This document shows, one piece after another, positions 16,223-32,012 of a stretch of 50,076 nt of DNA. Numbering within the stretch: position 1 is the first letter of the stretch; every line of letters begins with the position of its first letter. A program made the position numbers and the translations under genes. Location of the stretch: assembly GCA_902619165.1 (NCBI GenBank), contig CACNDI010000017.1, positions 1 through 50,076 on the forward strand, read 5' to 3'. Under the pieces are notes generated by a model that saw only the letters and a program-made list of their open reading frames with translations, made no database searches and was not told where the DNA came from. This DNA comes from an uncultured Alphaproteobacteria bacterium (lineage in GTDB: Bacteria > Pseudomonadota > Alphaproteobacteria > Rhodobacterales > Rhodobacteraceae).

Positions 16223-17740
16223 ATGTCTTCCAAGAACAAAGCTACAATTCCTGGCGCTTCGCTTGCCTCAACAATAAAAGTTCTAGCGGGGCTTGGTCCA
16301 CTCGGTGAAAAAGTTTTAAAGCAAAATGGAATAAGTGAGATTAATCAAAAAAAAAATTACCCGAGCTCAATAAGACTTAAAATATTTGAGGAGGTAAGAG
16401 ATAGATTTGGAACTGATGCATTGTATGCAATTGGTATAGAGCAAGGGCTTTTAATGTTATCCATGCTTCCGGATTTCGGTAAATACATAGAAAATTCAAG
16501 AAAAAAATACTTAATGAGATCGGTGTCTTCAAATAATAGAATTAGAAATTATAATTTTATAGATGAAACTTTGCCAGGATTACAAAAAATTACAAATGAT
16601 TATATGGAGCAATTTCGTAGCAATAAGCTTAAAGGTAATATAGGTTTTAGGCGGCTATCAGAAGATACGTGGGAAATGGCATTTGTACTGGCTCAGCCAT
16701 TGAAAAATTGGAAATTTGGAATTGGAAATTATCATATTTTTCTTATTAACCTTTTTGGTGACTTGTTTGATATTGAATACGCGCTGGATAAAAAAAGTGC
16801 AGATATTGATGATGGTTGGTCTAGCGGAGCTTTTATCCTCAAATTTTCACAAAATGAGATTTTAAGAGATCAGAAAGAAATAATTGCAAGTACAAGACTT
16901 AAAGCGCATGAAGGTCTAATGAAAGCTGTCCTAGAAGATGCTGAACGGAAAAAAGAGGAAACAGAGAGGTTATCTGTTAGCTTAGCAAAATACCTACCTC
17001 CCCAAGTCCACAAAGCAATTTTTTCTGGTAAGTTTAATACTGGAATTGCTACAAAAAGACGTAAATTAACGATTTTTTTTAGTGATATCTCAAATTTTAC
17101 AGCTACCTCGGAAGGTTTACAACCGGAAGATCTGACAAAGTACCTCAATGAATATTTTTCAGAGATGACTGATATCGCACTCGATCACGGCGCAACAATT
17201 GATAAATATATTGGAGACGCAATGATGGTATTCTTTGGCGATCCAGACAGCAAGGGGGAAAAAGAAGATGCAAGAGCATGCGTTAAAATGGCAATGGAAA
17301 TGCGCGATAGAATATCTGATTTACAAGATAAATGGCAAAAACAAGGTTTTGCGGATCCATTTGTGATTAGGATGGGCATGAATACTGGTTATTGTAATGT
17401 GGGTAATTTTGGAAGCGACCAACGGCTTACTTATACAATTATTGGTAGTGAAGTAAATATTGCTCAACGCTTAGAGGCATCAGCACAGCCAGGAGGGATA
17501 TTGATGTCGTATGAAACATACGCACACGCTCAGGACTTGATAGAAGTAGAACAACTAAACAGTATCTCGATGAAAGGAGTGAAAAGAGAAATTAAAGTAT
17601 TTTCGGTTTTAAATAAAATTAGACAGAGAAGTAAAATAAAAGAAACTTCTCATAAAATAAAAAATGTTCCAGAAAGGATAGGGGATAGGCTGGATGCTCT
17701 GGAAACAAAAATTGAAGAGATTTTGGATCGGATAAAATGA
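16223..17740 (+). CDS. Class III adenylate/guanylate cyclase, copy 1
   Basis: A 505-residue predicted cytoplasmic nucleotide cyclase. The N-terminal 215 residues form a domain I do not recognise, starting P-G-A-S-L-A-S-T-I-K-V-L-A-G-L-G. A charged helical linker (about 220-255) and the catalytic domain (about 278-460) follow. Metal ligands are Asp288 in F-F-S-D-I-S and Asp332 in Y-I-G-D-A-M. Lys328 is the purine-selecting Lys expected for ATP, and N-I-A-Q-R-L-E supplies the transition-state Asn and Arg. It therefore looks active and cAMP-forming. The last 40 residues are a helical coil. The stop overlaps the start of its paralogue (ATGA). Confidence 0.88.
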   Translation: MSSKNKATIPGASLASTIKVLAGLGPLGEKVLKQNGISEINQKKNYPSSIRLKIFEEVRDRFGTDALYAIGIEQGLLMLSMLPDFGKYIENSRKKYLMRSVSSNNRIRNYNFIDETLPGLQKITNDYMEQFRSNKLKGNIGFRRLSEDTWEMAFVLAQPLKNWKFGIGNYHIFLINLFGDLFDIEYALDKKSADIDDGWSSGAFILKFSQNEILRDQKEIIASTRLKAHEGLMKAVLEDAERKKEETERLSVSLAKYLPPQVHKAIFSGKFNTGIATKRRKLTIFFSDISNFTATSEGLQPEDLTKYLNEYFSEMTDIALDHGATIDKYIGDAMMVFFGDPDSKGEKEDARACVKMAMEMRDRISDLQDKWQKQGFADPFVIRMGMNTGYCNVGNFGSDQRLTYTIIGSEVNIAQRLEASAQPGGILMSYETYAHAQDLIEVEQLNSISMKGVKREIKVFSVLNKIRQRSKIKETSHKIKNVPERIGDRLDALETKIEEILDRIK

Positions 17741-19299
17741 GCACATCCGCCAACAAAACAAATAATGAAATGAGAATACCTGGAGCCGCGCTAGCTTCCA
17801 CGATAAAAGTTCTTGCTGGATTAGGGTCATTGGGAGAAAGGGTTCTTAAAGAGCACGGAATTACTCAAATTGATAATGATAAAGAGTATCCCAGTCAATT
17901 AAGAGCAAGAATTTTTGAAGAGATAAGAACCCGTTTCGGGAAAGAAGCACTTTATGCTATTGGGCTTGAACAGGGTTTTTTAATGCTTTCAATAGTACCT
18001 TCAATTGGCAAATTTATAGACGATTTCAGGATGAAATATAAAGAAGAGCTTTTACACCACTCTAATTTCTCTAGAAATCTCAAGATTTTAGATCAAACTC
18101 TTCCGTCTTGGGAAAAAATAACAAATGATTACCTTGGGCAAATGCACAATGATAAAGTACGATCTAAATTAAATTTTATAAAAACCGGTCCAGGTAAATA
18201 CGATGTACCGGTTATAAGCTCTCAAGTGGTTGAAAATAACAAATTTTTTGAAGCCAACTATTCAGTTTTTTTGATAAGTATGTTTTCAGAACTCTTCGAC
18301 ATTAAAATGGCTATCGATGAAGAAAATAGTGAGGATATGGATAATGGTTTCAGTAGATACCAATATACAATAACCTTTAATCAACTACAAAAAACAAGGA
18401 ACCATAAAGAACATTTAGCTCAAATCAGGTTTGATGCAAATCAACTTCTTTTAAGAAGGGTATTAGAGGAAGCCGAACAGCAAAAAAATCTCGTTCAAAA
18501 GCAGAAAGAGGATACAGAAAAACTATCTTCAAAACTAGGTAAGTATTTACCACCTCAAATTCATAATGCTCTATTTTCTGGGCAATTTGATACTGGAATC
18601 GCAACCAAAAGAAAAAAGCTAACTATTTTTTTTAGTGATATAAAAAACTTCACATCTTCATCAGAAGGTTTGCAACCGGAAGACTTAACTAGATATCTAA
18701 ACGAATATTTCTCTGAAATGACTGACATAGCGCTTACTTATGGAGCAACGATAGATAAATATATTGGTGATGCAATGATGGTATTTTTCGGTGACCCAGA
18801 AAGCAAAGGAGAAAGAGAGGATGCAAGAGCATGTGTAAAAATGGCTTTAAATATGCAAAGAAAAATAAAAAGCCTCCAAAGTAAATGGAGAAACGAAGGC
18901 TTTTATGAGCCATTCCAAATTAGAATGGGAATTAATACCGGTTATTGTAATGTCGGAAATTTTGGTAGTGAACAGAGGTTGACGTATACAATTATTGGGG
19001 GAGAGGTAAATATAGCCCAAAGATTAGAGGCTGCCGCGCCGAGTGATGGGATATTAATGTCATATGAAAGCTATGCTCACGCACAAGATTTAGTCGAAGT
19101 AAATGAATTAAGCTCTATTACTATGAAAGGTATTAACAGGAAAATCAAAGTATTTTCAGTTATTCGCGATCTAAAAACGAAAAAATTAGCGAAAGATGAG
19201 AGCAAGATATCTTCAATGGAAAGCAAAAGAAGTTCACTCGAATTAAGGATTGATAAGCTAGAAAAGCTGGTTTTTGAAATGATATCAAAATCAGATTAA
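17737..19299 (+). CDS. Class III adenylate/guanylate cyclase, copy 2 (tandem paralogue)
   Basis: A 520-residue protein alignable end to end with the gene before it. It has the same N-terminal P-G-A-A-L-A-S-T-I-K-V-L-A-G-L-G domain, linker, catalytic domain and C-terminal helix. Catalytic residues are all kept: F-F-S-D-I-K, D-K-Y-I-G-D-A-M and N-I-A-Q-R-L-E. The catalytic halves are much more alike than residues 90-215 of the N-terminal domain, so the two probably sense different inputs. Class III domains work as dimers, so translational coupling (ATGA overlap) may favour a heterodimer. It ends 61 bases before the dif-like site. Confidence 0.88.
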   Translation: MSTSANKTNNEMRIPGAALASTIKVLAGLGSLGERVLKEHGITQIDNDKEYPSQLRARIFEEIRTRFGKEALYAIGLEQGFLMLSIVPSIGKFIDDFRMKYKEELLHHSNFSRNLKILDQTLPSWEKITNDYLGQMHNDKVRSKLNFIKTGPGKYDVPVISSQVVENNKFFEANYSVFLISMFSELFDIKMAIDEENSEDMDNGFSRYQYTITFNQLQKTRNHKEHLAQIRFDANQLLLRRVLEEAEQQKNLVQKQKEDTEKLSSKLGKYLPPQIHNALFSGQFDTGIATKRKKLTIFFSDIKNFTSSSEGLQPEDLTRYLNEYFSEMTDIALTYGATIDKYIGDAMMVFFGDPESKGEREDARACVKMALNMQRKIKSLQSKWRNEGFYEPFQIRMGINTGYCNVGNFGSEQRLTYTIIGGEVNIAQRLEAAAPSDGILMSYESYAHAQDLVEVNELSSITMKGINRKIKVFSVIRDLKTKKLAKDESKISSMESKRSSLELRIDKLEKLVFEMISKSD

Positions 19300-19359: not shown

Positions 19360-19387
19360 AAATAACATAATATATATTATGCGCCAA
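19360..19387. other. dif: Chromosomal dif site (XerC/XerD recombination site)
   Basis: Reading plus strand: arm AAATAACATAA (19360-19370), centre TATATA (19371-19376), arm TTATGCGCCAA (19377-19387). The reverse of the known E. coli dif has arm ATTTAACATAA, centre TATACA, arm TTATGCGCACC. The 11-6-11 layout and most arm bases agree, with the ACATAA and TTATGCGC inner ends identical. By that comparison the TTATGCGC arm is the XerC side and the other the XerD side. It lies in a 104-base gap between a cyclase and the KAP gene. It would mark the replication terminus. Confidence 0.85.
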
Positions 19388-19403
19388 ATATTGAAGCACA
19401 AGT

Positions 19404-21416
19404 TCACGCTTCATAGGTATAATTCTCTCCTAAATATGTCTGGGTAATTTCATTATACTCTTGAGACTCCCCTCTTATTTCAATGTCTTTAGCTGTAACA
19501 ACTTTTTTCCTGTTATCAATATTTAACCTAGAGTCCCAATGATGTTCTACCATCTCTATCGACTTTTTAAATAAAGTTAAAATTTTATGTTTGTTAATTT
19601 TATATGCATCTGCATCTTTGAGAGATAATGCATACATGTGAGAGTTATGAGCTGTAGAAGGCTTATCTAAAGAAAATTTCCTATTTTGGGCAGAAACTAT
19701 ATTTTTTAGCAATGGCACCCTGTAATTATTATCAAAATGCTTTACTAATCTTATTACGCAACCATTTTTCCCAAATTTTGCACCAAAATTACAAAACTTT
19801 CTAGAAGCAACGTATCCCGTTATAGTTCCCGCATATAAAAACTCTTCAATAGCTTCGAGTTCTTTTTCCAAATCAATATGAATTTGTTTTATTAAATTAA
19901 TTTGATCATCTGAGTAGCCGTCATTTGTTTGTTTATCCAGTATCCACGTATCCAGGCCGTCCAAGAAGCGTCTTTTATAGGCACCCTGTCTTTCCGGGAG
20001 AATAATTTGCCCTTGGTCTGTAGAAGTGACGCTTGTAACCGAAGTCTGACTCATAACACTTGCAATCGTTTCTCCAATTATTTCCTGCTTGTTTGCCATC
20101 AATTCATCTTTTATGTAACTAAAAAACTTTGATATATCCGCAACTCTAGGCTTCAGCCTAGGTCTATTGAAGCAAATACGATATAGACACTTTTCCCAAT
20201 CTTCATTGAAATCTGAAGTTTTAATAGCGTTTTCGTATTCTTCTGAAAAAGTTTTTGAAGATTCTTCACTTCTCTTAGTTTCTTCAAATGCAAAATCATC
20301 ATCCCAAGCAGAAAAATCGGGTTTTGTTATTAACAGACTATAAATTTGGGGATAAGCTATTTGAAGACATAAAAGAGAAAACATTAGGAATTTATAATCT
20401 CTTTCATCTAGTTCTTCCTCACCTTTTTCTTGTTCATTAGTGGAACTTTCAACTACTACTTTTTCTTCCGAAAAAATCTGAATAAGAGATACAGAGTTTA
20501 CAAGTCTTTTTATAGAACGAGGGTTGCCACCTATAGTTCTTAGTATAATTTCGCGAATAGACTCTTCATTGAGGCCATCGTCGGTTACGAAACCGATATC
20601 CATTAATAGAGAGTTAACATATTTGCCTATATTATACTGACCCATCGGCATCATGAAGGGAAGTTGAATAATCTTATCAAAGAAAGCTCGGAACTCCCAT
20701 TCGTTTTCTGCCGTCTGTTTGCCAAATTTATGCTCTAAGCCTTTAACCACGACTTGATAGTCAATAGCTAAAATAAATACACAATTTGGGACACTAAATA
20801 TGTTTTTTAACAACTCTAAAATAGCAACTGCATTTTTGGGTTCAATTCTATCCAAGTCGTCTACATAAATAATGATCTTCTTATAGGGATTACTGGTTCT
20901 TCTTTCTATTTCTTCTACTAATTCCTTTAATTGCTCTCTTAATGCACCGATGTTTGCTTCTCCACTTGATAGCAATTCACCAGCAACATTTGCGGCCTCA
21001 TTTCCCAATGTTAATTGTGCCCCTACCCTTAAAGCTCCCTGAAATATTTTCTTTGCGCCATCTTGAATCTTTTCTTTCCTTTTTTGATTTTTATCCGCTT
21101 CGATTAATTCATCAATTATTCGATTAACAATTTTTAGCAAGGACTCTTCAGGGGTAGATAGAAGAGAATATTCCCACGAATTTATCCAAATTTGTTTGCA
21201 TTCAGCATTGCTTTCAAAAGAATGGTAAATAGCATTAATTAAAGATGTTTTTCCACTACCCCATTCTCCCTGAATACCTATAGTAATGGGAGTACTAGTA
21301 TCATTTATAAATCGAATTAGCGACTTTGTATGAATAGTAAGGTCTAGATTATCACTGCCACCGGGAACTACTGGTTCATCTTTTATTCCGACTGCTTTCT
21401 GGATATAGACCTCCAC
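19404..21416 (-). CDS. KAP family P-loop NTPase
   Basis: A 670-residue KAP NTPase. Walker A is G-E-W-G-S-G-K-T at 50-57, preceded by T-I-G-I-Q. Walker B is I-I-I-Y-V-D-D-L-D-R at 181-190, followed by I-F-S-V-P-N-C-V-F-I-L-A-I-D-Y. The arginine-bearing G-G-N-P-R-S-I-K-R sensor region comes later. Unlike the animal members there are no clear membrane helices in the KAP insert; a helical A/G-rich stretch at 125-155 may replace them. The C-terminal 350 residues are not recognised. The family includes the F-plasmid phage-exclusion protein PifA and is common on plasmids and in defence loci. As first gene next to dif it is the best candidate core of the cargo function. Role inferred, not shown. Confidence 0.85.
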   Translation of the reverse strand: MEVYIQKAVGIKDEPVVPGGSDNLDLTIHTKSLIRFINDTSTPITIGIQGEWGSGKTSLINAIYHSFESNAECKQIWINSWEYSLLSTPEESLLKIVNRIIDELIEADKNQKRKEKIQDGAKKIFQGALRVGAQLTLGNEAANVAGELLSSGEANIGALREQLKELVEEIERRTSNPYKKIIIYVDDLDRIEPKNAVAILELLKNIFSVPNCVFILAIDYQVVVKGLEHKFGKQTAENEWEFRAFFDKIIQLPFMMPMGQYNIGKYVNSLLMDIGFVTDDGLNEESIREIILRTIGGNPRSIKRLVNSVSLIQIFSEEKVVVESSTNEQEKGEEELDERDYKFLMFSLLCLQIAYPQIYSLLITKPDFSAWDDDFAFEETKRSEESSKTFSEEYENAIKTSDFNEDWEKCLYRICFNRPRLKPRVADISKFFSYIKDELMANKQEIIGETIASVMSQTSVTSVTSTDQGQIILPERQGAYKRRFLDGLDTWILDKQTNDGYSDDQINLIKQIHIDLEKELEAIEEFLYAGTITGYVASRKFCNFGAKFGKNGCVIRLVKHFDNNYRVPLLKNIVSAQNRKFSLDKPSTAHNSHMYALSLKDADAYKINKHKILTLFKKSIEMVEHHWDSRLNIDNRKKVVTAKDIEIRGESQEYNEITQTYLGENYTYEA

Positions 21417-21506
21417 AAATAATACAATTTTAAATATTTATTCTTTATAGTTAATTTTATTTAGTTAATTTTATTATGTCTAGCAATAAAAAGAGATAAT
21501 TAGATT

Positions 21507-21608
21507 ATGAAAATATCGAGTGATTACCCTAAAAGAATTGTAAAAATTCTGAAGGAGTTGAATAAAAATAAAGACGGTGAATGGTTCTACCTAATATTCA
21601 ATTTATAA
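21507..21608 (+). CDS. Possible 33-residue small protein
   Basis: A short frame starting ATG at 21507, 13 bases upstream of the membrane-protein gene and in the same direction. It reads M-K-I-S-S-D-Y-P-K-R and later L-K-E-L-N-K-N-K-D-G-E-W-F-Y, a plausible amphipathic helix. A purine-rich AAAGAGA lies 8 to 14 bases upstream. No family is recognised. It may be a leader peptide for the next gene or a chance frame. Confidence 0.3.
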   Translation: MKISSDYPKRIVKILKELNKNKDGEWFYLIFNL

Positions 21609-21621
21609 GTAAGTTCTTATT

Positions 21622-22158
21622 GTGACTAATTTAAATTTTTTCATTGAAAAAGGCTACAACTGGGAGGTACTTCTTTATATAGTTTTATTTTCTTTTATTA
21701 CTCTATTTTTCCTCGGAATAACTAACAAGATAATAATTTACAGAGATACAAACGATTTCATGTGGAACATTTTTTTAATAATAGTTCCACTTTTCATCTT
21801 GATAATTTTGGCATTTCTTATGCCTGAGCCTTTACCCGATAATTATAATTTTTTTTGGGAAACTCAAAACACGTCGATTATTTCAATAATTGGTTTGAGC
21901 ATATCAGCCTTGTCTTTACTTAAAGTATTTATAAATTGCATCAAAAACAACGGCATGCTTTTTGGACTTGTTATTTTTATTTTCAAAGTTTTTGCAAGCT
22001 TAATAATCACTATTCTCTTGCTCGCGTTTATTGGGAAATTATTTGATGATAAGGCCGCATGGAAAACACTTTTTGTACCCTTGTTATTGTTCGGTCTATT
22101 TATTTTCATAATAAACAGATTAATAAATGGTGATCGTGTAATTTCAAAAACTGTTTAA
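21622..22158 (+). CDS. Integral membrane protein of unknown function
   Basis: A 178-residue protein with about five hydrophobic segments (near residues 15-38, 48-68, 84-103, 113-137 and 148-165) and short, mostly charged loops. No signal for export and no catalytic motif is seen, and I do not recognise the family. The start is GTG at 21622. The gene is divergent from the KAP NTPase and convergent with the TM2 gene, ending 26 bases before it. Small multi-helix membrane proteins often act as effectors in phage-defence loci, but here that is only suggested by context. Confidence 0.6.
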   Translation: MTNLNFFIEKGYNWEVLLYIVLFSFITLFFLGITNKIIIYRDTNDFMWNIFLIIVPLFILIILAFLMPEPLPDNYNFFWETQNTSIISIIGLSISALSLLKVFINCIKNNGMLFGLVIFIFKVFASLIITILLLAFIGKLFDDKAAWKTLFVPLLLFGLFIFIINRLINGDRVISKTV

Positions 22159-22184
22159 GATGCCAACTTGTATAAAAATTTGGG

Positions 22185-22994
22185 TCAATCTAAATAATCT
22201 GAAAAACTATTTGATTTGATGCCTTCCTTTTTAAAACGCATTCCTACGTGTTTTATGCATTGATAATAAATGTTATCAAGCATTTCTTGTACCTCATCAA
22301 AATCATCATCATCAGAGTCAGGTCCATATATTGACTCGGGATTAGTTTTTACTAAGTCTCCACAATCTTTTAGGCCCTTTTTTGATAAGATACTTTCATA
22401 AACAGCGTGTTCAAACATAATATGGTGAATTAATCCTTGCAAAGACATATCATAACTTCCATCCACACGATCCATATAGAATTTATCATAGGCGTACCCT
22501 GGTCTTATATTAAAATCACCATCCATAAACACATCTTTATTGTTATTAATAATGCCATCTAGTATCTTTATTACAAACTCAGACGGGTCAGAGCCTTTAG
22601 AGAATTTTTCAGTACTTTTTTCTATATTTCTTTGCGAGGTCGCTACTTTACCCTCGTATTTCTGGTTGTTTTGTAGCTCGAATTCGTCTTCCTCGCTTAA
22701 TTGATTTTTAGAAATTGACTTGCTACCAGACTTTAAATCCTCTGAAACATTAGTACTCTTTACCCCGCCGAGAAAAGGAATACTAATAAGCTTTCCTCTG
22801 AAAAGAGCTGAAAATAAGTCAATGAAATAGAGTAGAAATAATAAATATAAAGGATAAACGCTTATCCCTATTTCAAAGTTTGTTCCCACTCCACCAAGTA
22901 TCAAGCAAGCCAAAAAAATAAATCCGACTACCTTGTCACCGGTCCAAAATCTGTGTAAACCTGACGGGCCAAAAATAAGCGTTATTAGTATCAA
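22185..22994 (-). CDS. TM2 domain-containing protein
   Basis: The N-terminal TM2 domain has two membrane helices around G-P-S-G-L-H-R-F-W-T-G-D, a form of the family's G-x-x-G-x-H-R-F-Y turn. A low-complexity linker (about 80-130) precedes a C-terminal acidic domain of about 140 residues that I do not recognise, containing H-H-I-M-F-E-H-A-V-Y and a D-S-D-D-D-D-F-D run. The only conventional start is TTG at 22994, which trims the first helix. The open frame extends upstream to an ATA at 23009 preceded by GAGAG, giving M-K-K-F-L-L-I-L-I-T, a much more typical TM2 start. Function unknown. Confidence 0.65.
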   Translation of the reverse strand: MILITLIFGPSGLHRFWTGDKVVGFIFLACLILGGVGTNFEIGISVYPLYLLFLLYFIDLFSALFRGKLISIPFLGGVKSTNVSEDLKSGSKSISKNQLSEEDEFELQNNQKYEGKVATSQRNIEKSTEKFSKGSDPSEFVIKILDGIINNNKDVFMDGDFNIRPGYAYDKFYMDRVDGSYDMSLQGLIHHIMFEHAVYESILSKKGLKDCGDLVKTNPESIYGPDSDDDDFDEVQEMLDNIYYQCIKHVGMRFKKEGIKSNSFSDYLD

Positions 22995-23050
22995 TAAAAA
23001 TTTTTTTATTTTGTTCTCTCAATTTATCTAAAAAACATTAATCATGCGAC

Positions 23051-23233
23051 TCAATCATTCAAATTAACTTCAAAATCTAAGAAATCTTTTAATCCAACGC
23101 ACTCTCTCACTTCTTCTTTTGTTATTTGTAATTTGCGGGCAATTTCGATTATATCTTTAATGGTTGGCTTCTTAATTATGGCCCACTCTTTATTAACTTC
23201 TTGGCACATTTCATCGTAAGTTTTAAATCTCAT
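23051..23233 (-). CDS. Hypothetical 60-residue protein
   Basis: Starts at ATG 23233 with AAGG 7 bases upstream and reads M-R-F-K-T-Y-D-E-M-C. It is all-helical in appearance and includes I-K-D-I-I-E-I-A-R-K-L-Q-I-T-K-E-E-V, which resembles the first helices of a helix-turn-helix or a small antitoxin-like protein, and an acidic end. No toxin-like partner directly abuts it. The TM2 gene follows 41-56 bases downstream on the same strand, so the two may be co-transcribed. Family unknown. Confidence 0.5.
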   Translation of the reverse strand: MRFKTYDEMCQEVNKEWAIIKKPTIKDIIEIARKLQITKEEVRECVGLKDFLDFEVNLND

Positions 23234-23322
23234 CAAATACCTTCTAGAACTATCAACCTATTTTTTCTTAATTTAAATATCTTTATTTTATTTTTTCTTA
23301 CTATTATCGCTATTGAGATACT

Positions 23323-23880
23323 CTATAGCGATTGTATCGTAGCATTTCCTTTGACCAAAAATCCATTAAATATAACATTGGGATATTTATTTTTTAGCGA
23401 ATATAGAGCTTCGATATTTGAACTTAGGTCATCATAAATTGTGACTTTTTTATACCTATTTGTTTCCAAATGCTTTTCAAACACTAATTTTTTGGCGTCA
23501 TAGGATGCTAAGCCAATCTTATTTCCTGCTCTTTCTACGTACAATCTATCAGTATCTATTCCAAACTTTGTGAGGGTCTTCAAAAATAATTCCTTATTAT
23601 CGAAGTCTCGTCTAGCAGTTACTATTATTACGTCTATATCAATTACTTGGTTCAGTTTTTCTTTTAAAATTTCTAAAGTGATATTGATGGGTCTCGCAGT
23701 TCTGTTAAATAGGTTTGCATCTTCAAACTCTTTAAAATCATACTTTTCATAAGCTTGAAGTTTATATCGACTATATTCAGCATTTGATAGCTTTCTCACA
23801 ATCTTATTTTCTTTGCGCACTATCACTTTAGCCGTCGTCTTAAATAAAGTATCATCTAAATCAAAAATAAATAATTCCAT
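23323..23880 (-). CDS. HAD-superfamily phosphatase (phage-type nucleic-acid end or nucleotide phosphatase)
   Basis: A 185-residue single-domain HAD protein. Motif I is F-I-F-D-L-D-D-T at residues 4-11 (Asp7 nucleophile, Asp9 acid). Motif II is V-I-I-V-T-A-R-R. Motif IV is T-I-Y-D-D-L-S-S-N, preceded by K-K-L-V-F-E-K-H. The compact cap and the V-T-A-R-R turn recall phage-borne polynucleotide phosphatases and RNA-repair-type HADs rather than metabolic phosphatases. It is upstream of the TM2 and 60-residue genes on the same strand, about 90 bases away. The substrate cannot be named. It fits a cargo set dealing with nucleic acids. Confidence 0.75.
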   Translation of the reverse strand: MELFIFDLDDTLFKTTAKVIVRKENKIVRKLSNAEYSRYKLQAYEKYDFKEFEDANLFNRTARPINITLEILKEKLNQVIDIDVIIVTARRDFDNKELFLKTLTKFGIDTDRLYVERAGNKIGLASYDAKKLVFEKHLETNRYKKVTIYDDLSSNIEALYSLKNKYPNVIFNGFLVKGNATIQSL

Positions 23881-23942
23881 TTTTTAATGACTTTGTAAAA
23901 AATATTTGAGAACATTGAATTTTAGGATACCAAGTTTGGAAG

Positions 23943-24182
23943 ATGAATAACAACAAAATAAAACTACTATTTTTGAGGGCAATTGTCATTGCCATACCCG
24001 CATATACAGTTGCATTTTTAACTGAAAAGGTAACTTTAGTGGTTCCAACTCTAGCTATGTTCTTATTAATTGCAAATTCGATAGAATCTGGAACCGTATC
24101 AAATAGGAACAGAATAGAGGAAGATGGAAATTCTCAGGATGATGGAGATGGTGGTTTTAATGAAAATGATGGGAGTGTATGA
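23943..24182 (+). CDS. Small membrane protein with acidic tail, copy A
   Basis: A 79-residue protein with one or two membrane spans (about residues 8-26 and 30-46) and then a hydrophilic tail rich in Asp, Glu, Asn and Gly. Its V-T-L-V-V-P-T-L-A-M-F-L-L core matches M-V-F-V-L-P-T-L-A-I-G-L-L in the gene after it, so the two are paralogues. It overlaps that gene by ATGA. It is not recognised beyond this. It could be a holin-like, channel or anchor protein, but there is no direct sign of function. Confidence 0.6.
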   Translation: MNNNKIKLLFLRAIVIAIPAYTVAFLTEKVTLVVPTLAMFLLIANSIESGTVSNRNRIEEDGNSQDDGDGGFNENDGSV

Positions 24183-24418
24183 ATTTGCTTACAAAAAATA
24201 ACAAGTCCTTTTTCTCTTCACTTAAAATAAAGAGCCCTTCCCTCTTATTATTTAAACTAGTTATTATTTTTGTTCCAACTTTTCTAATAGCACTATATGT
24301 CGATAAAATGGTTTTTGTCTTACCAACTCTGGCTATAGGCCTACTCTTGGGGACTGGATTTGATGGGTCAGATACTAATTCGAAAGATAATGAAGAAGCC
24401 GATAGTGGAGATAATTAG
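24179..24418 (+). CDS. Small membrane protein with acidic tail, copy B
   Basis: Also 79 residues, with the same layout as copy A: a basic, Ser/Lys-rich start, spans at about 22-39 and 42-58, then an acidic end with K-D-N-E-E-A-D-S-G-D. The shared hydrophobic core with a P-T-L-A centre and the equal length show tandem duplication, with N-terminal ends diverged. The ATG overlaps the stop of copy A, implying equal amounts of the two. The GIY-YIG-like gene follows 6 bases later on the same strand, so the three probably form one operon. Confidence 0.6.
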   Translation: MNLLTKNNKSFFSSLKIKSPSLLLFKLVIIFVPTFLIALYVDKMVFVLPTLAIGLLLGTGFDGSDTNSKDNEEADSGDN

Positions 24419-24424
24419 TAAAAA

Positions 24425-25132
24425 TTGATAAAGAAGTTCTCAAGACGAACCATAGAAGGAATGAAGTATTACGTCTATGGACTGAAATTTCCGGGTACCA
24501 GGAAATATTTTTACATTGGTAAGGGCAAAGGAAATCGAGTTTTTTCACATCTGAATCAAAAGTTAAAAAAAGGAATTAAAGATCCAAAATATGATGTGAT
24601 TAATAGTCTTATTGTCCAGGGCGGACCTGAAATTGATATTATCAGGCACGGATTAAATGAATACGAAGCGCTATTACTTGAAAGCACTCTTATCGATGCA
24701 CTTGATGTTAGTCAAATTACAAATAAAGTCCGAGGAATTGATGCTAATAGATATGGATTAATGTCACCTAAGAATGTCGAAGCAAATTTCAAAGGAAAGG
24801 AATTTAAACTAAAGATACCAGCAGTCTGTTTTAAAATAAATAGAAGATGGAAAAAGAATATGACTAAAGAAGAACTCTATGAGAGCATACGAGGAACTTG
24901 GTACCTTAGCCTCAATAGAGCGAAAAATGCCCAATATGGAATCGGTCTTTGCTTCGGAATAATTAGAGGTATTTATAAAATAAATGATTGGGAAACTGAT
25001 AATACTCGAACACCAGTAAGACATAGGTTTATTGGCACAGAGGCAACTGAATTAGAAAGGTACTTGGGGTATAATATGTATAATCACCCTGGACACAAAG
25101 TAAGAGGACCTTTATTTTATAATTATTGCTAG
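24425..25132 (+). CDS. GIY-YIG-like (LEM3-type) nuclease-fold protein
   Basis: A 235-residue protein whose first 100 residues resemble the LEM3-like GIY-YIG domain. Y-Y-V-Y-G-L stands for GIY, then F-Y-I-G-K-G-K-G-N-R-V-F-S-H for the YIG plus Arg/His region, and a late N-E-Y-E-A-L-L-L-E-S carries the candidate metal Glu. The C-terminal 110 residues are unknown and W/Y/R-rich (R-G-T-W-Y-L-S). The start is TTG at 24425. An ATG at 24461 is possible but its AAGG is too close. The 3' end overlaps the convergent DUF2779 gene by 4 bases. A DNA-cleaving role is inferred. Confidence 0.68.
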   Translation: MIKKFSRRTIEGMKYYVYGLKFPGTRKYFYIGKGKGNRVFSHLNQKLKKGIKDPKYDVINSLIVQGGPEIDIIRHGLNEYEALLLESTLIDALDVSQITNKVRGIDANRYGLMSPKNVEANFKGKEFKLKIPAVCFKINRRWKKNMTKEELYESIRGTWYLSLNRAKNAQYGIGLCFGIIRGIYKINDWETDNTRTPVRHRFIGTEATELERYLGYNMYNHPGHKVRGPLFYNYC

Positions 25133-26595
25133 GTTTTCAAAGAAGACCTTAACTTTTCAAGTAATAATACCATTGCCTCAGTGTCTAAGTGGCAATAACC
25201 TAAAACTCCTAGCCAGTAATTAGTAAGTTCTTTACCCCTGAGGTCTCCTTTAAAAAAATCTTCATATTTAATTGAGGCTTCCATTCCCCCTTGTATGTCT
25301 AGATTCTTGTAAGTTGTTCCGGTAAATGCCGGTAAAACTCGTTTTATTGAAGCAGAACCATTTTGATCTGGTGAATACACCCATCTGGACCTAAAAGGGA
25401 TAAGAAGGTCAACCATTCTTTTATTTAAATCAAGCAAAGTAGCACCATTTTCAGGAAAGCTCTTTGCTAACAATTTAATTATATTCATTTCAAAACTCTG
25501 ATTATAAACGATTATCGTCCCGATTTGTTCACAAACATTTAAAAGTTTTTTAGTGAACATGATGCGTGGGTCGTCCCTCGTTTGATGAAGGTACTCATGA
25601 TGCTCGAGTTCAGATTCCATATTTCTCTTAATATGTAAAGAGAATTGGAAGGGAATAGGTTCATACGGTTTCGTATTTTCAAAAATGGGTATTGCCGGTG
25701 AAAAAGTTTCAAAATCCAAAAAAAATAATGGATATGACAGCGAATTTAAAAACATAGAAACCTTTTTACGATCTATAAAAGTTTCCTTGTTCAAATACGA
25801 TATTAAATCTATCTTTTTATTTCCATTCGGGTAATCGGTTTCAGTAAGGTCTTCTACTGCCATGCTTTTATTTTGAAGAAATATTTGATCTGCCTTTTTT
25901 CCAGTGAACACAGAGAAAATATTATATTTGGGAATTTCTTTCCAACAATAGTCTCGATACGAACAATTTTTACAATGAGATCCAAGATCAACAACTGGTT
26001 CATTTTTGTAGTGACAAACTTCAATTAAATTCTCTATTCTTTCTTCTATACCTTTTTGTTTTTCTAAGACAACTTTAGTAACATCAGTTTTCATTAATAA
26101 ATCATTGATATTAAGCTCTTTTTTAAGGGAGTAATTTTTGTTTAAATGTAGGACGGAAATGTTTTTTATATTTAATCTATTTTCAGAAAAGACATGATAT
26201 TGAAAACTTAAGTCATCAATATGATAATCTTTTGCACCAGTTGAACTTTTTACCTCTAGTAATTCCCATGACTTATCATTATTTAAAATAAGTATATCGG
26301 CACGTGCAAAAACCTTGCTTTGTGAGTGGATAGCCGTTCCTTCATAGATTATGTTGGCTCCCTCTTTTATGCTCTTAAGTGTAAGTTTATTTGCCCTTTC
26401 TACCTCATAATATTCTGTCTTTGGCTCAAAACCTTCTCCGTAGTATTGTTTAGCAATTTCACCAACCTCATTACCGACGGTAAACCGGTACTCTGCTGAC
26501 ATATCCTCTTTTTCTATTAAATCCCTTCGATTTCTTGAAAGCCAAAGAGCTTTGGGACATTCCAAGCCGACTAAGTATTGAGATTTAGATAACAT
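25129..26595 (-). CDS. DUF2779-type fused Fe-S RecB-like nuclease and DEDD exonuclease-fold protein
   Basis: A 488-residue protein with two parts. The first is a Cas4/RecB-like nuclease: Cys13 in L-E-C-P-K-A-L-W, the PD-(D/E)XK core with Asp99 in A-R-A-D-I-L and Glu114/Lys116 in L-L-E-V-K-S, and Cys208, 211 and 217 in H-C-K-N-C-S-Y-R-D-Y-C. Together the four Cys can hold a 4Fe-4S cluster. The second part is RNase H-like: F-L-D-F-E-T-F (DxE), Y-N-Q-S-F-E and Y-C-H-L-D-T-E-A. All key residues are present. The ATG at 26595 (MLSKSQYL) matches the family start; a GTG at 26610 is possible. Role unknown; likely DNA processing. Confidence 0.82.
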   Translation of the reverse strand: MLSKSQYLVGLECPKALWLSRNRRDLIEKEDMSAEYRFTVGNEVGEIAKQYYGEGFEPKTEYYEVERANKLTLKSIKEGANIIYEGTAIHSQSKVFARADILILNNDKSWELLEVKSSTGAKDYHIDDLSFQYHVFSENRLNIKNISVLHLNKNYSLKKELNINDLLMKTDVTKVVLEKQKGIEERIENLIEVCHYKNEPVVDLGSHCKNCSYRDYCWKEIPKYNIFSVFTGKKADQIFLQNKSMAVEDLTETDYPNGNKKIDLISYLNKETFIDRKKVSMFLNSLSYPLFFLDFETFSPAIPIFENTKPYEPIPFQFSLHIKRNMESELEHHEYLHQTRDDPRIMFTKKLLNVCEQIGTIIVYNQSFEMNIIKLLAKSFPENGATLLDLNKRMVDLLIPFRSRWVYSPDQNGSASIKRVLPAFTGTTYKNLDIQGGMEASIKYEDFFKGDLRGKELTNYWLGVLGYCHLDTEAMVLLLEKLRSSLKT

Positions 26596-26680
26596 ATAAA
26601 ATTTACCCACAATTAAGGATTTAAAAAGTTCAAATAAAAGATATATAATAACTTATATTATATATTCTTGGAGAAAAAAA

Positions 26681-26914
26681 ATGGGTTTTCTTGATTGGGC
26701 AGCTGGAGCTTATCTTGCAGGCAGAGCGCATAATACTATGAATAGACCACATATAACGGTACCGAGTGGCTACGAAATCAGGGGTATGAAAAGTAAAGGC
26801 TTATCTGAATGGACAATAAAGTATGGTAAAATTGGTAGCAACACTACTTCTCAATTTAATGTTAGCAGAAATACAAGGTCAAGGACTGGCGGCTGGAAGT
26901 TTTACTGGAATTAA
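26681..26914 (+). CDS. Hypothetical small Gly/Arg-rich protein
   Basis: A 77-residue product with a good GGAGA ribosome-binding site ahead of ATG 26681. It starts with a short hydrophobic M-G-F-L-D-W-A-A-G-A-Y-L-A-G-R-A segment and continues with a basic, Ser/Thr/Arg-rich, probably beta-rich part ending G-G-W-K-F-Y-W-N. It is divergent from the DUF2779 gene, sharing an 85-base promoter gap. No family is recognised. Confidence 0.6.
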   Translation: MGFLDWAAGAYLAGRAHNTMNRPHITVPSGYEIRGMKSKGLSEWTIKYGKIGSNTTSQFNVSRNTRSRTGGWKFYWN

Positions 26915-27032
26915 ATCTTTGTATTAAACTCGGCGATATAGTTGTTTTCAAACAATAATTTTTGTTTATTTTTAAATGTATTAGGAAGACATTAAAAGTT
27001 TTGTCTGGCTACAAACCTCAATTATTAAAGCG

Positions 27033-27686
27033 CTAATTTACTTTCCTGTGGAAGAAAATATCCAAATCTTTTTTGCTAATTGGTGTCTCTAAAAGTTCTC
27101 TAAACTCTTTACCTTCACCAATTACCAGATATTCATCATCAATTTCATTCATATATCGCCTTAAAGACTCTGCAACCTGTGACTTTACTGAATGTGGAAA
27201 AGAATTCAATTCATTGAAAAACCTTCTTACTCCTCTAGCTACAAAATTAGCAGGTGTATTTTTACTCTGGTGCAACCCAGGTGAAAGAATATATTTTTCT
27301 TCTCTAACGCCATAAACTATTTCTATAGCTTTTAAATATTTTTCTTCTGAGTAATCACTCGAAAAAAAATATTTGGCCACATCTCTTGTTAACTGACAGT
27401 AGTATGGCCATCTCAAAAATTTATAGCCGATATCATTGAAATACAAGGCCCTTTCTTCATCTCTTTTCAATTTCCATACATTTTCATAGTGCTGTGGACC
27501 TTCATATTCAAATACGATTCTTTTTAACTTTGAACAACAATCAACGAGGTAAAACTTTCTCTTATTGGACGGGTCGTAATAATATCTTACCTGACTTTCC
27601 CATTCACCTTCAGGCGAGAAAATTTTTGCCGTTTTATAAAGATTTTTTTCAGTCATCTCCCCTTTTGGAACGATCTCCTTATTCAT
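27033..27686 (-). CDS. VSR/DUF559-like PD-(D/E)XK endonuclease-fold protein
   Basis: A 217-residue protein whose first 110 residues match the pattern of very-short-patch/DUF559 nucleases. An early Glu in E-W-E-S-Q-V-R is followed by V-D-C-C-S-K-L-K-R-I-V-F-E-Y-E-G-P-Q-H-Y. Then come the acid-rich R-D-E-E-R-A-L-Y-F and the core end G-Y-K-F-L-R-W. Asp of VDCC and the Glu and His of E-Y-E-G-x-Q-H are candidate catalytic residues. The C-terminal half is helical and unknown. It is divergent from the last cargo gene. In this family, such proteins occur in mismatch repair, mobile elements and defence; which one applies here is open. Confidence 0.7.
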   Translation of the reverse strand: MNKEIVPKGEMTEKNLYKTAKIFSPEGEWESQVRYYYDPSNKRKFYLVDCCSKLKRIVFEYEGPQHYENVWKLKRDEERALYFNDIGYKFLRWPYYCQLTRDVAKYFFSSDYSEEKYLKAIEIVYGVREEKYILSPGLHQSKNTPANFVARGVRRFFNELNSFPHSVKSQVAESLRRYMNEIDDEYLVIGEGKEFRELLETPISKKDLDIFFHRKVN

Positions 27687-27755
27687 AATCCACCCATATA
27701 TTTGACTAAAATCTGTAAAACAGTAACATTATATTTTATAAGTGGGAACAAAATT

Positions 27756-28388
27756 ATGGCAAAGAATATAGATATTAATGATGCAATATTTGGTTTGATT
27801 TGGTGTATGGCGGCAGTAGATACAAAAATTGATCCTATCGAAACTAAATACCTTCAATATCTCAAAGAGGAAAAGCAAATTAATTTAACTAAAAACGTAA
27901 TTCTTAAAAAAAATGGAACACTTTCTTTTTATGGGAAAAAAGGCATTAAAGAGGCAAAAAGTATTTGGGAAATGTGCTGCAATAGATTAAATGCGTCCGA
28001 GCATCTTCATCGAACCAAAGCTATAGCTGAAGTTTTTGATTTTGTGTACATATTTGAATCTTTTCCAAAATATAAAGATCTTCAGAAAAAAATTAAAAAA
28101 CCAGAAGGCACTTTATTTTTTAATACTTTAGAAAAATTAGATATTTCCGAGGAGGTAGTTTTGCAACTTTCCAATCGAATTGATCCTCACCTAATATGTG
28201 CAATAAGTGGAATAGAGTTGCATTCGAAGTTGTTAACCCTACCAAAAATGACAAAAAAGAAAGTCAATCAAGTGATGAAACACTTTAATAACAGCTATGA
28301 AATAAGAGAAACTTCCCTGAGATCGCTATGTAAAATTGATTTTATTGACGTCGAAGATGCTATTGAAATTCAAAAATGTTTTTACTAA
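27756..28388 (+). CDS. Hypothetical helical protein, weakly TerB-like at its N-terminus
   Basis: A 210-residue protein from ATG 27756; a TTG at 27702 would add 18 atypical residues. The first helices read A-I-F-G-L-I-W-C-M-A-A-V-D-T-K-I-D-P-I-E-T, which resembles the A-D-G-x-I-D-P-x-E turn of TerB-like domains. The rest is Lys-rich and helical with no recognised motif. It is the last gene before the right-hand dif-like repeat and divergent from the VSR-like nuclease across about 70 bases. TerB-like modules occur in phage-response and stress loci, so the hint fits but is weak. Confidence 0.55.
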   Translation: MAKNIDINDAIFGLIWCMAAVDTKIDPIETKYLQYLKEEKQINLTKNVILKKNGTLSFYGKKGIKEAKSIWEMCCNRLNASEHLHRTKAIAEVFDFVYIFESFPKYKDLQKKIKKPEGTLFFNTLEKLDISEEVVLQLSNRIDPHLICAISGIELHSKLLTLPKMTKKKVNQVMKHFNNSYEIRETSLRSLCKIDFIDVEDAIEIQKCFY

Positions 28389-28456
28389 AATTATCACATA
28401 ATTAACAGGCGTGACCAATCAGTACTGTTAAACAAATTTAAAAAAGCAACTAAAAC

Positions 28457-28479
28457 AACCTAACCTCTTTAGTTAGGTT
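28457..28479 (+). terminator. 8-base stem-loop between last cargo gene and right dif-like repeat
   Basis: AACCTAAC pairs perfectly with GTTAGGTT around a 7-base loop. There is no T run after it, so it may be a weak terminator for the gene ending at 28388 or a protein-binding palindrome near the element end. It lies 23 bases from the degenerate dif arm. Confidence 0.35.
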
Positions 28480-28501
28480 AGTGTGACTAGTATAGCGTTC
28501 G

Positions 28502-28529
28502 TCTTAATATACTATATATTATGCGCCAA
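28502..28529. repeat. Second, imperfect dif (right end of the element)
   Basis: Same orientation as the left dif: arm TCTTAATATAC (28502-28512), centre TATATA (28513-28518), arm TTATGCGCCAA (28519-28529). The centre and TTATGCGCC arm are identical to the left copy. The other arm matches it at only 6 of 11 positions and lacks the ACATAA inner end. A degenerate XerD-side arm on one flank is what stabilises known dif-integrated islands. Confidence 0.8.
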
Positions 28530-28530
28530 A

Positions 28531-29898
28531 AAAATAATAAAATTTTTATTATATCTGGCCTGGATACCCTCTTTTCATGCTCTGAAAGCTATTCATAAAG
28601 CTTTTTTCTTAAACTACACGTTGTCGTTATAATTTAAAACGCAAGAAAAAACTTGGATAGTTTTATTTGAAAAAGTAATCTGTTTTGATTTTTTCAGGAT
28701 TATAAAAATTATAAGTGTAAGAGCATAAAAACAGGAAAATAGGAAATAATGTTTTTAAAATGTTTGCAGTGCAAAAGGAGTTCGAAGCTATAGTTGTGAT
28801 ACAGTATATTTTAATATTAATTATTGATCAAAAAGCGATTAGATATAGCGATGATTTTGCTCTTATAACCCTTGTTTCTGCCCGAACTAGGATACTCACG
28901 TTTATTGTTAATAGTTTGGCCTTTCATATCTATAGGGAAAAAGTGCTTTTTCCGCGGTAGAGTAGAAAGGAATTGATACACACTTATCAGACAGCAACCT
29001 AGCAGTATAGAGAGTTCTGTCGTTCTATTTTATAAAAAATAAAGCACTGAATTCATGGAATGTCTCCCCTACCCGTTTTTCCTATGCTGCTACTATTGTT
29101 TTTTTAGAAACGATAACACATTTCTTCCGGCCATATTGTATTTAGTTATGTGTTTCCTTTTATCTATTGTTTGGTTGTTATGGCTTAAAGTAAGGAATAA
29201 CCCAAGATTGAATGATGGCTATTTACTATATTAAAAAATCCAATTTATTTTATTCGTTCAATGTGAACCGATATTATCATCGGCTTGTAGTTCCCTTTTT
29301 TTATTACATACTTTTTTAAAGAGGCTAAAATCTAGATGATTTTTTTGAAACCTGATGCATAATCGGTTGCAGCAATCTTCGCTATTGATTAAGCCCAGAA
29401 AGGTATAGATACTCAAACAAAAATAAACATATTATGTTCTGTTTATTTGTTTTTAGTCTTAGTGTAATTGGGATTTTTGTACTACCGTCTTTCTTATTTT
29501 GTCTATAATTATCGAGAGATTTTACCTAATTTAGCATGAACAATGCTGACTACTTAACAGATATATATCCTAAATTGCAAAAAAATTTAGATGTAATTTT
29601 TTATTCTATTACCTTTATTTTTGTTAAGTTATCATATTTTAAAGGGTTGCTTCCAAGCTATTCTGAAATTTCATCACAGGAACTTTTTATCAATCTTTTG
29701 TTGGAATATTTTTATTGCCTGAGGTAATAAGTATTATGTTTTTTAATAAAAAAGATAGCGCTACTAATGAGTCTTTATATGTTGCCCGTTCTTCTTGGAA
29801 TAACTCAGGATCGTTAATACGTAACAATCTTTCCAATTTTATATTTTTACACCATTTAATTTTATCATTGATATGGACAAGGATAATATATAGACAAA
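28531..29898. other. 1.4 kb region without a convincing gene
   Basis: Unlike the rest of the window, this stretch right of the second dif has no frame I trust. Open frames at 28760-28960, 29536-29727 and 29715-29909 are short, rich in Ile, Leu, Phe and Tyr as expected of random AT-rich DNA, and show no family. The best is an ATG at 29736 (57 codons) with GAGGT ten bases upstream. An AAAGCT/AGCTTT hairpin with a T run lies at 28585-28607. It may be decayed DNA from an earlier insertion at dif, or an untranslated terminus region. Confidence 0.5.
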
Positions 29899-30567
29899 AT
29901 GGTTATTGAGAATATGTTTGTAATTATACCGCCGAAAATAATCAAAGAAGCAGCATCACAAAATAAGTTTATTCCAACTTTATATTCCCATAAGTTCTTT
30001 TTGGTACGTGGTTTTTTTTGGTTACGCCTTCGTTTAATATATTCACTTATAATTGAAACAAGTGTTAACAGGACAAATTGTTTAGATTTCGGAGGGGGTG
30101 GAGGTGCATTGTTGCCAACCTTATCAAGAGTTTTTAAAAATGTTGATTGCAGTGATAAGTTTTGTTACGAGGCTCCCAATATAGTACAATACTATAAATT
30201 AAAAAATATCAATCTTTATGAGGTTGATCTCCTTAATTTTTCAAATAAGGGAGAGCAATACGATAATATAATAGCCGCAGACGTATTAGAGCACTTTATT
30301 TCATTGAGAGAGCCAATAGATAAGATAAAAGAGCTTCTCAAGAAAGATGGCGTCCTATTTACATCCCTTCCAACAGAAAATACTTTTTATGTTTTCTTAA
30401 GGAAGATATTCAATATAATTAAACCCGACGATCATTACCATACCGCAAAAGAAGTCGAAAATTTTTTAGAAAAGGAAGGCTTTATTAAAATAAAATCTAT
30501 ATACGTCCCACTTTATTTTCCTATATTGAAGCTTTTTCATATCACGTCATGGAAAAAAAATGATTAA
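29899..30567 (+). CDS. Class I SAM-dependent methyltransferase
   Basis: A 222-residue methyltransferase of the Methyltransf_11/23 type. The SAM-binding motif I is C-L-D-F-G-G-G-G-G-A-L-L at about 59-70, with motif II-like N-L-Y-E-V-D-L-L. Motif IV is A-A-D-V-L-E-H-F, followed by L-L-K-K-D-G-V-L-F-T-S-L-P-T-E-N. H-Y-H-T-A-K-E-V-E-N-F is a common late motif in small-molecule or sugar methyltransferases. The start could be ATG 29899 or 29914. It overlaps the next glycosyltransferase by 8 bases, so its substrate is probably a surface glycan or lipid-linked sugar. Confidence 0.85.
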   Translation: MVIENMFVIIPPKIIKEAASQNKFIPTLYSHKFFLVRGFFWLRLRLIYSLIIETSVNRTNCLDFGGGGGALLPTLSRVFKNVDCSDKFCYEAPNIVQYYKLKNINLYEVDLLNFSNKGEQYDNIIAADVLEHFISLREPIDKIKELLKKDGVLFTSLPTENTFYVFLRKIFNIIKPDDHYHTAKEVENFLEKEGFIKIKSIYVPLYFPILKLFHITSWKKND

Positions 30568-31531
30568 TAAACTTAAAGTTGCTTGCGTCATCCCTTGCTT
30601 CAAAGAAACGAAACATATAATGAGTGTCCTTAAAAAAATTGAAAGTGATGTTGATAATATCCTTTTAGTTGATGACGGTTGTCCTGATAAAACTGGAGAA
30701 TACGTACTAAACAGGAATAAGGATCCACGGGTCGAAATAATCTTTATGAAGAAAAATTTAGGCGTTGGTGGAGCCACTATGGCGGGCTATAAGGAGGCCT
30801 TAAAGAAAAAAGTTGATATTGTAGTAAAAATAGATGGTGATGGGCAAATGGACCCTTCTTTTTTAAAAGATTTAGTTTCTCCAATAGTCGATGGGAAATG
30901 CGATTACACAAAAGGTAATAGATTTTTTTATCTAAAAGATATCAAGTCTATGCCAAAAAGCAGAATATTTGGTAACATTTGTTTGTCTTTTTTGTCAAAG
31001 TTTTCTAGTGGTTTTTGGCAAATTTCTGATCCTACCAATGGTTTTACTGCGATACATAAAAATGCGCTGGAGTCTATTGAATTAAGAAAAATTTCACATG
31101 GTTATTTCTTCGAGTCAGACATTTTATGTAAACTTTACTTGGCAAGAGCTACCGTAGTTGATGTCCCGTTGCCAGCCGTGTACGGGTCAGAAGAAAGTGG
31201 GATAAATGTTCCCAAAATAATACCTATATTTATCTATCTTCATATTTATAATTTTCTTGAAAGGATTTTCTATACATATCTTTTACGAGACTTCAGTTTT
31301 TATTCCTTAAATTTAGTAATAGGCACCTTTTTTATGAGCTTTGGGTTTCTCTTTGGTGTATTTCATCTAATGGTTAGCCTTTTGTCTGGAATTGCTGCTA
31401 CAGCTGGGACGGTGATGATTTCTGCATTACCAATTTTAATTGGATTTTTTTCTTTGATGCAATTTATGTCATACGATGTTAACAATACCCCCAAGATACC
31501 TCTACAAAAGCTCGTCCAGAAAAAAAAATAA
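30560..31531 (+). CDS. GT2 family glycosyltransferase (dolichyl/undecaprenyl-phosphate sugar synthase type)
   Basis: A 323-residue membrane-attached GT-A enzyme. The first 230 residues have V-I-P-C-F-K-E-T, L-L-V-D-D-G-C-P-D-K-T-G, N-L-G-V-G-G-A-T-M-A-G, and the metal-binding K-I-D-G-D-G-Q-M-D. Two or more helices near 255-310 anchor it. This is the pattern of enzymes moving a sugar from a nucleotide sugar to a polyprenyl phosphate. The GtrA-like gene 20 bases downstream is the usual flippase partner for such a product. Sugar unknown. Confidence 0.87.
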   Translation: MINKLKVACVIPCFKETKHIMSVLKKIESDVDNILLVDDGCPDKTGEYVLNRNKDPRVEIIFMKKNLGVGGATMAGYKEALKKKVDIVVKIDGDGQMDPSFLKDLVSPIVDGKCDYTKGNRFFYLKDIKSMPKSRIFGNICLSFLSKFSSGFWQISDPTNGFTAIHKNALESIELRKISHGYFFESDILCKLYLARATVVDVPLPAVYGSEESGINVPKIIPIFIYLHIYNFLERIFYTYLLRDFSFYSLNLVIGTFFMSFGFLFGVFHLMVSLLSGIAATAGTVMISALPILIGFFSLMQFMSYDVNNTPKIPLQKLVQKKK

Positions 31532-31551
31532 CCAATATTTAAATTTTCTTT

Positions 31552-31944: not shown

Positions 31945-32012
31945 TAAGCCAGTTGACCTAATCTTTAACTTACTAATGCCAAGAATATCCACTAAAATAA
32001 TCAGCATTAAAG

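Follow-up and report, generated by a model that had tools for sequence, protein, structure and literature searches.

The window analysed here, 50,076 nucleotides of contig CACNDI010000017.1 from an uncultured member of the Rhodobacteraceae, contains a segment of about 9.1 kb that sits in the chromosomal dif and is bounded on its right by a second Xer site. This raises the question of what kind of element occupies dif and by which route it came there. The preliminary description considered the segment to be a Xer-exploiting integrative element (IMEX) resembling the gonococcal genetic island. This view was borne out for the design of the ends, which is that of difGGI and attP-TLCphi, but the segment does not appear to be simply a free-standing island, as its right end looks like one half of a tailed-phage attachment site and some related inserts appear to be prophage relics. 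The source of the right end, judged from sequence to be the attachment module of marine tailed phages, is the new point of this study. We regard it as reasonably probable that the segment is a Xer-delivered integrative element with a tailed-phage-type attachment site, either a satellite or a phage derivative such as a gutted prophage.

The two Xer sites and the right end

The 18-bp repeat TATATATTATGCGCCAAA was found exactly, on the plus strand, at 19371-19388 and 28513-28530, the second core lying at +9,142 bp. No further copy with up to three mismatches was present in the whole window. In shuffled windows the mean number of matches was 0.06, and two matches were obtained in none of 100 shuffles. 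In the genome, a draft of 2.28 Mb in 51 contigs with 88% completeness, the 14-bp core GCGCATAATATATA was exact at only these two places, and copies with one mismatch occurred at two more. The perfect direct repeat reported in the preliminary description was confirmed at both bounds, and the dispersal that would have spoken against it was not observed.

The left site is the complete dif AACATAATATATATTATGCGC, which was found in 15 of the 22 genomes of the genus, that of the window included; the other seven are drafts with a completeness of 58-90%. Read on the minus strand, it consists of the XerC arm, the centre TATATA and then TTATGTTATTT; its left arm is AAATAACATAA at 19360-19370. The second site agrees with dif in its centre and XerC arm, but its XerD arm, TCTTAATATAC at 28502-28512, is another one and reads GTATATTAAGA on the minus strand. 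The repeat is thus the dif centre plus the XerC arm, as originally proposed, and the letters of the altered arm were also given correctly. The limits of both sites in Table 1 follow the 28-bp dif convention. One complete dif is retained beside the segment, and the cumulative GC skew over the window reached its maximum in the 18-19 kb bin, as expected close to the terminus.

The right end of the segment was compared with viral contigs from IMG/VR by blastn. Window positions 28423-28530 matched contig L167 (75% over 114 columns, E 1e-12), and 28441-28530 matched contig L273 (78% over 103 columns, E 4e-18); in the latter alignment a gap of 13 bp separates hairpin and site, and the part preceding the hairpin has small gaps. 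The matched stretch of about 90-108 bp holds a hairpin, the altered XerD arm, the centre and the XerC arm, and the XerD arm of L273 is identical to that of the right site. When the core was removed, nine alignments to contigs with a RecE/YqaJ-like exonuclease (described below) stayed, and 11 were obtained when the XerD arm was also removed. Without the core, the right end gave no match to 107 control viral contigs (930 kb), of which 80 had been chosen for a hairpin-like 16-mer. Because the right-end flank matches a phage attachment region, the segment probably entered via the host recombinases.

The hairpin, with a stem of the type ..TAAC/GTTA.. and a loop starting with CTC, was observed beside four sites, namely those of the window, G203, G214 (+1133) and G201. 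Its 22-mer, searched with up to three mismatches, occurred in 2 of the 22 genus genomes and only at the ends in the window and G203. The folding energy was unremarkable (z of -0.5 to -1.7 at the four ends). The stem letters compensate between hairpin types (CCTAAC/GTTAGG, CTTAAC/GTTAAG and ACTAAC/GTTAGT), as judged by reading and not by a formal covariation test; an alignment of the complete module was of low quality and was disregarded. Hence, the hairpin is supported by its recurrence and its compensated stem letters and not by folding energy. An ordinary terminator was also considered and was rejected, since there is no T run and the 22-mer is restricted to two such ends in 22 genomes. In contig L155, five copies of the 9-bp repeat GTCAGGTTT occupy the space from the hairpin to the site. 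The hairpin and the repeats may have an accessory role in recombination.

The tailed phages with the module and the Xer recombinases

The 18-mer was found in 15 IMG/VR contigs, and the hairpin stood just before the XerD arm in 12 of them. All 12 belong to the contigs with a RecE/YqaJ-like exonuclease, and the attachment module lies directly upstream of the exonuclease gene. A search with the exonuclease (alignment A1), by which contigs were selected by protein and independently of dif, gave 29 loci. The most distant locus, L290, was excluded, and L285 could not be assessed because its sequence begins 58 bp ahead of the gene. Among the remaining 27, the hairpin and the core (up to two mismatches in 18) were present upstream of the exonuclease in 22, although these phage-contig counts are not independent because the sets overlap and include close copies of one phage. 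The module was absent from the other five (L276, L277, L278, L281 and L286), whose leader resembles that of the other contigs as far as roughly the hairpin. Since these five have a similar leader and no module, the module looks like an exchangeable cassette.

The families recognised on contigs of this group were a tail fibre (L269), an endolysin and RusA (L155) and a primase-helicase (L166, L281 and L283), and the group has distant homologues of genes of phage MEP301. Viral contigs of 4-10 kb with the hairpin had suggested a filamentous-phage satellite. This candidate was dropped because the contigs encode tail fibres, endolysin, RecE-like exonuclease, primase-helicase and RusA. An exonuclease profile gave no match in 394 genomes of the family, a result that says little as there was no positive control. 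Separately, contig L164 is microvirus-like by its head protein and Rep families and contains the exact 18-bp core with another flank, which was also seen in L157 and L161; single-stranded DNA phages may therefore use the same dif as the tailed phages.

Of the two Xer-type genes of the host, C5 scored higher with the XerD model than with the XerC model and C16 showed the reverse, both under the equivalog cut-offs. A phage XerD-like gene was present on eight distinct contigs (for example L155:7070-7960 and L283:5176-6111), with a fragment on L280, and the L155 protein showed 49% identity to C5 and 31% to C16. The gene was not found in L158, L160, L166 and L273, contigs that extend past its place; L273, the best match to the window end, is among them. 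A resolvase-like phage protein is encoded nearby (alignment A3). Its predicted fold (mean predicted local distance difference test score 75, predicted template modelling score 0.53) was closest to large serine recombinases (Bxb1, E 1.8e-5). The R-x-S motif usual in serine recombinases was absent from this protein, and an accessory role is a guess. On the whole, the tailed phages of this family appear to borrow host recombinases.

The dif region in related genomes and the cargo

Seven of the 14 relatives with a complete dif, 11 of which we take to be marine single-cell genomes, have a left flank that stays colinear with the window up to dif itself, with 88-95% identity (G172, G200, G205, G206, G208, G211 and G216). 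To the right of dif, one apparently empty allele is common to G172, G205, G211 and G216; according to gene names assigned by reading, it has an epoxide-hydrolase-like gene beside dif, and a cyclotransferase-like gene lies at a distance of 2.3 kb from the site. Ten of the 14 differ from this allele beside dif. Because the right-hand alleles differ among relatives, dif has a hotspot on its XerC side in this genus. A core match in G090 was examined and is not a dif. As a side observation, G203 (L064) and G212 (L074) have in common a 7.4-kb block beside dif with 94% DNA identity, which in G212 is separated from dif by a 1.5-kb block also present in G201.

Besides the window, exact second cores were found in G203 at +9,179 bp and in G214 at +1,133 and +1,922, and G201 has a second core at +2,808 with one centre base changed. 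None of these second sites has the XerD arm of dif. The insert of G210, 8.1 kb long, terminates in a vestigial site that is joined to the right flank of the shared allele. Thus, a second site or phage traces were observed in 5 of the 15 genomes with a complete dif. When the ends were compared without the core, the nearest phage was L167 for G203 (92%), L154/L267/L268 for G214 +1133 (91%) and L282-L284 for G201 (93%). Phage DNA also follows the left dif in G210 (91%, 603 bp) and G201 (88%, 475 bp). The insert of G214 contains a broken piece of the exonuclease, the sole match among the 22 genus genomes, and that of G210 contains a 107-aa phage open reading frame (ORF; 88%) and a weak match to the phage resolvase-like gene (E 4e-4), again the sole one among the 22. 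Relics of phage genes are present in the inserts of three genomes (G214, G210 and G201); an intact prophage was not found. Ordinary-looking genes lie between dif and the phage end in G203 and G201. The end sequences of G214 +1922 (L065) and G210 +8112 (L072) form a second type, 87.5% alike over 80 bp, and gave no match to the phage contigs.

The features of the segment are listed in Table 1. The family scans, which covered the larger ORFs and the smallest only partly, recognised no gene for an integrase, a transposase or replication, in agreement with the preliminary description; type IV secretion families were likewise not found among the scanned ORFs. The KAP NTPase gene ends 16 bp from dif, and its protein scored 110 bits with NCBIfam QatA, far below the cut-off of 600. 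The match of the GIY-YIG protein, a putative defence protein, to the PD-T4-3 model covers 200 of 256 positions; distant homologues, none of which reaches 60% identity, occur in 184 plasmid records. The cargo consists mostly of putative anti-phage genes. This label of defence comes from family names, from which we infer the function.

Table 1 Features of the segment and its two boundaries in the window.
Feature	Position	Strand	Basis
Left boundary: complete chromosomal dif with XerC arm, TATATA as centre and XerD arm	19360-19387	-	sequence; same dif in 15/22 genus genomes
KAP-family P-loop NTPase, 670 aa	19404-21416	-	Pfam KAP_NTPase 4.5e-40; PADLOC PifA 2e-34, QatA 4e-28
178-aa ORF, hydrophobic by eye, no family	21622-22158	+	family scans
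269-aa ORF, no family	22185-22994	-	family scans
HAD-type phosphatase-like protein, 185 aa	23323-23880	-	phrog_415 polynucleotide kinase 9.7e-9; weak HAD matches
Two similar-looking 79-aa ORFs, hydrophobic by eye	23943-24418	+	ORF list
GIY-YIG protein, PD-T4-3 family, 235 aa	24425-25132	+	PADLOC PD-T4-3 4e-32; Pfam LEM-3-like GIY-YIG 2.3e-11
DUF2779 / Cas4-like nuclease candidate, 493 aa	25129-26610	-	Pfam DUF2779 6.5e-41, Cas_Cas4 1.3e-5
DUF559 protein (nuclease-like family), 217 aa	27033-27686	-	Pfam DUF559 7.6e-6
228-aa ORF adjoining right end, no family	27702-28388	+	family scans; no relative confirmed in viral contigs
Stretch matching phage attachment module	28423-28530	+	blastn to L167 and L273
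Hairpin AACCTAAC-loop-GTTAGGTT beside second site	28457-28479	+	sequence; recurs at other ends
Right boundary: second, attR-like Xer site with altered XerD arm	28502-28529	-	sequence; XerD arm identical to phage contig L273

Outside the segment, two related cyclase-like genes (16223-17740 and 17737-19299) form a tandem pair immediately left of dif, as judged by sequence reading and cross-matches. To the right of the second site, about 1.4 kb (28531-29898) contains no convincing gene and is unmatched elsewhere in the genus.

Origin of the segment and comparison with known systems

A Xer-delivered element would arrive as a circle with one dif-like site, composed of the hairpin, the repeats, its own XerD arm, the dif centre and the XerC arm. 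Host XerC and XerD would make one crossover at the dif centre. The left product would then combine the XerD arm of the chromosome with the XerC arm of the element and form a complete dif, and the right product, the altered XerD arm of the element joined to the chromosomal XerC arm, would form a poor dif. Such an arm should hinder excision, as reported for difGGI (PMC5357621), and the cargo would occupy the place where phage genes would be. We infer the circle, the order of strand exchange and the present mobility. For such an element speak the core, whose only exact copies in the genome are those at the two ends, the left flank, colinear to dif in half of the relatives, and the presence of host XerC-like and XerD-like genes. 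Furthermore, the right end matches the phage module, and several inserts carry the ends of other phage variants. With regard to a satellite, the segment has its attachment site in common with phages (the L273 and L167 matches), any of which might be the helper. It is conceivable, although we hold this only tentatively, that the segment is a small defence-bearing satellite of tailed marine phages that lack a dedicated integrase, with the Xer module of these phages, in their lysogeny site and moved by host XerC and XerD. If the segment is a Xer-delivered element, we regard a strict satellite as about as likely as the other forms taken together. It would perhaps be helped by XerD-like proteins from relatives of the helper phage.

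Several results weigh against a Xer-delivered element of this kind. The preliminary description had proposed comparison with an empty site in relatives. Relatives with a single dif and a colinear left flank were indeed found, but a strict empty site with both window flanks was found in none of them. The right flank of the window (28531-31950) gave only a 62-bp piece in G209 among the other genus genomes, and a second short match lies in the genome of the window itself (G000). No window ORF matched the phage contigs, and the phage exonuclease was not found in G000. For the KAP, DUF2779 and 228-aa proteins, neither a confirmed relative in IMG/VR nor a satellite-like viral contig was found, and the 27 viral contigs matched by the left-junction 16-mer contained no dif core. 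The same cargo was not seen in a second genome, the GIY-YIG protein being found only distantly in 15 of 393 other genomes of the family. Defence cargo is not general in the other dif inserts either, because of nine proteins scanned from these inserts or flanks, one gave matches to defence models, namely an ABC-type ATPase encoded in G210.

These results have to be weighed together with a different course of events, in which a tailed phage entered dif and lost nearly all of its DNA, and the cargo, from dif to the surviving phage end, came later by ordinary recombination. The locus would then be a turnover hotspot and no mobile unit. The phage-gene relics in G214, G210 and G201, the ordinary-looking genes before the phage end in G203 and G201, the XerC side unlike the shared allele in 10 of 14 relatives and the failure to find the window cargo in viral contigs are all in its favour. 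However, 16 bp separate dif from the cargo and no phage DNA can be recognised there, which places both junctions at the Xer crossover, a point that a chance replacement need not hit; in a tandem array like the one in G214, deletion by Xer could give a crossover junction as well. We consider such a scar of a lost prophage possible but rather unlikely. The segment could also be a free-standing IMEX of the gonococcal-island kind, from which phages acquired the attachment module. The cassette-like behaviour of the module, absent from 5 of 27 phage contigs with a similar leader, fits this idea, which is nevertheless very improbable in our estimation, as several distinct phage variants each have a matching host insert and in three genomes the ends occur together with phage genes. 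An artefact of assembly or amplification, or a chance similarity, deserves mention because the genome is an incomplete draft and several relatives are labelled as metagenome-assembled genomes or have single-cell-type names. The absence of two matches in all 100 shuffles, the phage match of the hairpin and XerD arm independently of the repeat, and similar structures in other genus genomes make this explanation scarcely credible.

If the Xer-delivered element is correct, there would be a family of marine tailed phages that are temperate through the dimer-resolution system of the host, and dif would be a phage-driven gene hotspot in the genus. The hairpin-repeat module would give a handle on Xer control outside Vibrio and a sequence tag by which to recognise prophages and satellites overlooked by searches for integrases. 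If the segment is in particular a satellite, it would represent a satellite system based on chromosome-dimer resolution in double-stranded DNA tailed phages.

The gonococcal genetic island is 57 kb long, carries a type IV secretion system and has no integrase of its own. Its cargo, like that of the present segment, is flanked by a complete dif and by a copy whose XerD arm diverges (PMC5357621 and PMC9765430); the segment differs in its 9.1 kb, without type IV secretion, and in its tailed-phage type of right end. According to PMC5357621, difGGI and the attP of TLCphi-type IMEXs of Vibrio cholerae share a conserved XerC arm and centre and a divergent XerD arm; TLCphi is a filamentous satellite, whereas the phages here are tailed. 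The Legionella element LME-1 is similarly a phage-like element in dif with a modified site at one end (PMC9765430), but it uses the single recombinase XerL and has another host and other genes. The dif/pdif modules of Acinetobacter are Xer-site-bounded cargo in arrays; they are plasmid-linked resistance modules, and the passages of PMC12907356 consulted describe no phage-type end. A filamentous phage at a tRNA gene encodes a XerD-like recombinase (PMC10011098). Methylophilales phage MEP301 has distant homologues of the exonuclease (29%), the holin (41%) and the resolvase-like gene (23-26%), but showed no convincing dif-like site in a simple scan with a dif consensus; PMC8024684 reports no functional serine recombinase for it.

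No tailed phage at the main dif via XerCD is mentioned in the sections available of PMC5357621, PMC9765430, PMC8024684, PMC7901474, PMC10589892, PMC9966536, PMC10011098, PMC3861242, PMC6536676 and PMC12907356. The open-licence literature likewise contained no report of a tailed phage integrating in this way, which is weak evidence of absence as most subscription papers are not covered, nor of a defence element sharing such an attachment site. The Xer-exploiting elements reported in these sources are filamentous phages, microviruses, tail-less membrane phages, islands and plasmid modules. The statement in the preliminary description that no such element was known for this group has to be qualified by Jorvik, a Rhodobacter capsulatus phage that uses dif-like sites (PMC10589892). 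Jorvik-like and NO16-like phages are, according to PMC10589892 and PMC9966536, double-stranded DNA phages with dif-like sites for which use of XerCD has been suggested. They differ from the phages described here in being tail-less and about 9-10 kb in size, and Jorvik was located in a RuBisCO operon instead of the terminus dif.

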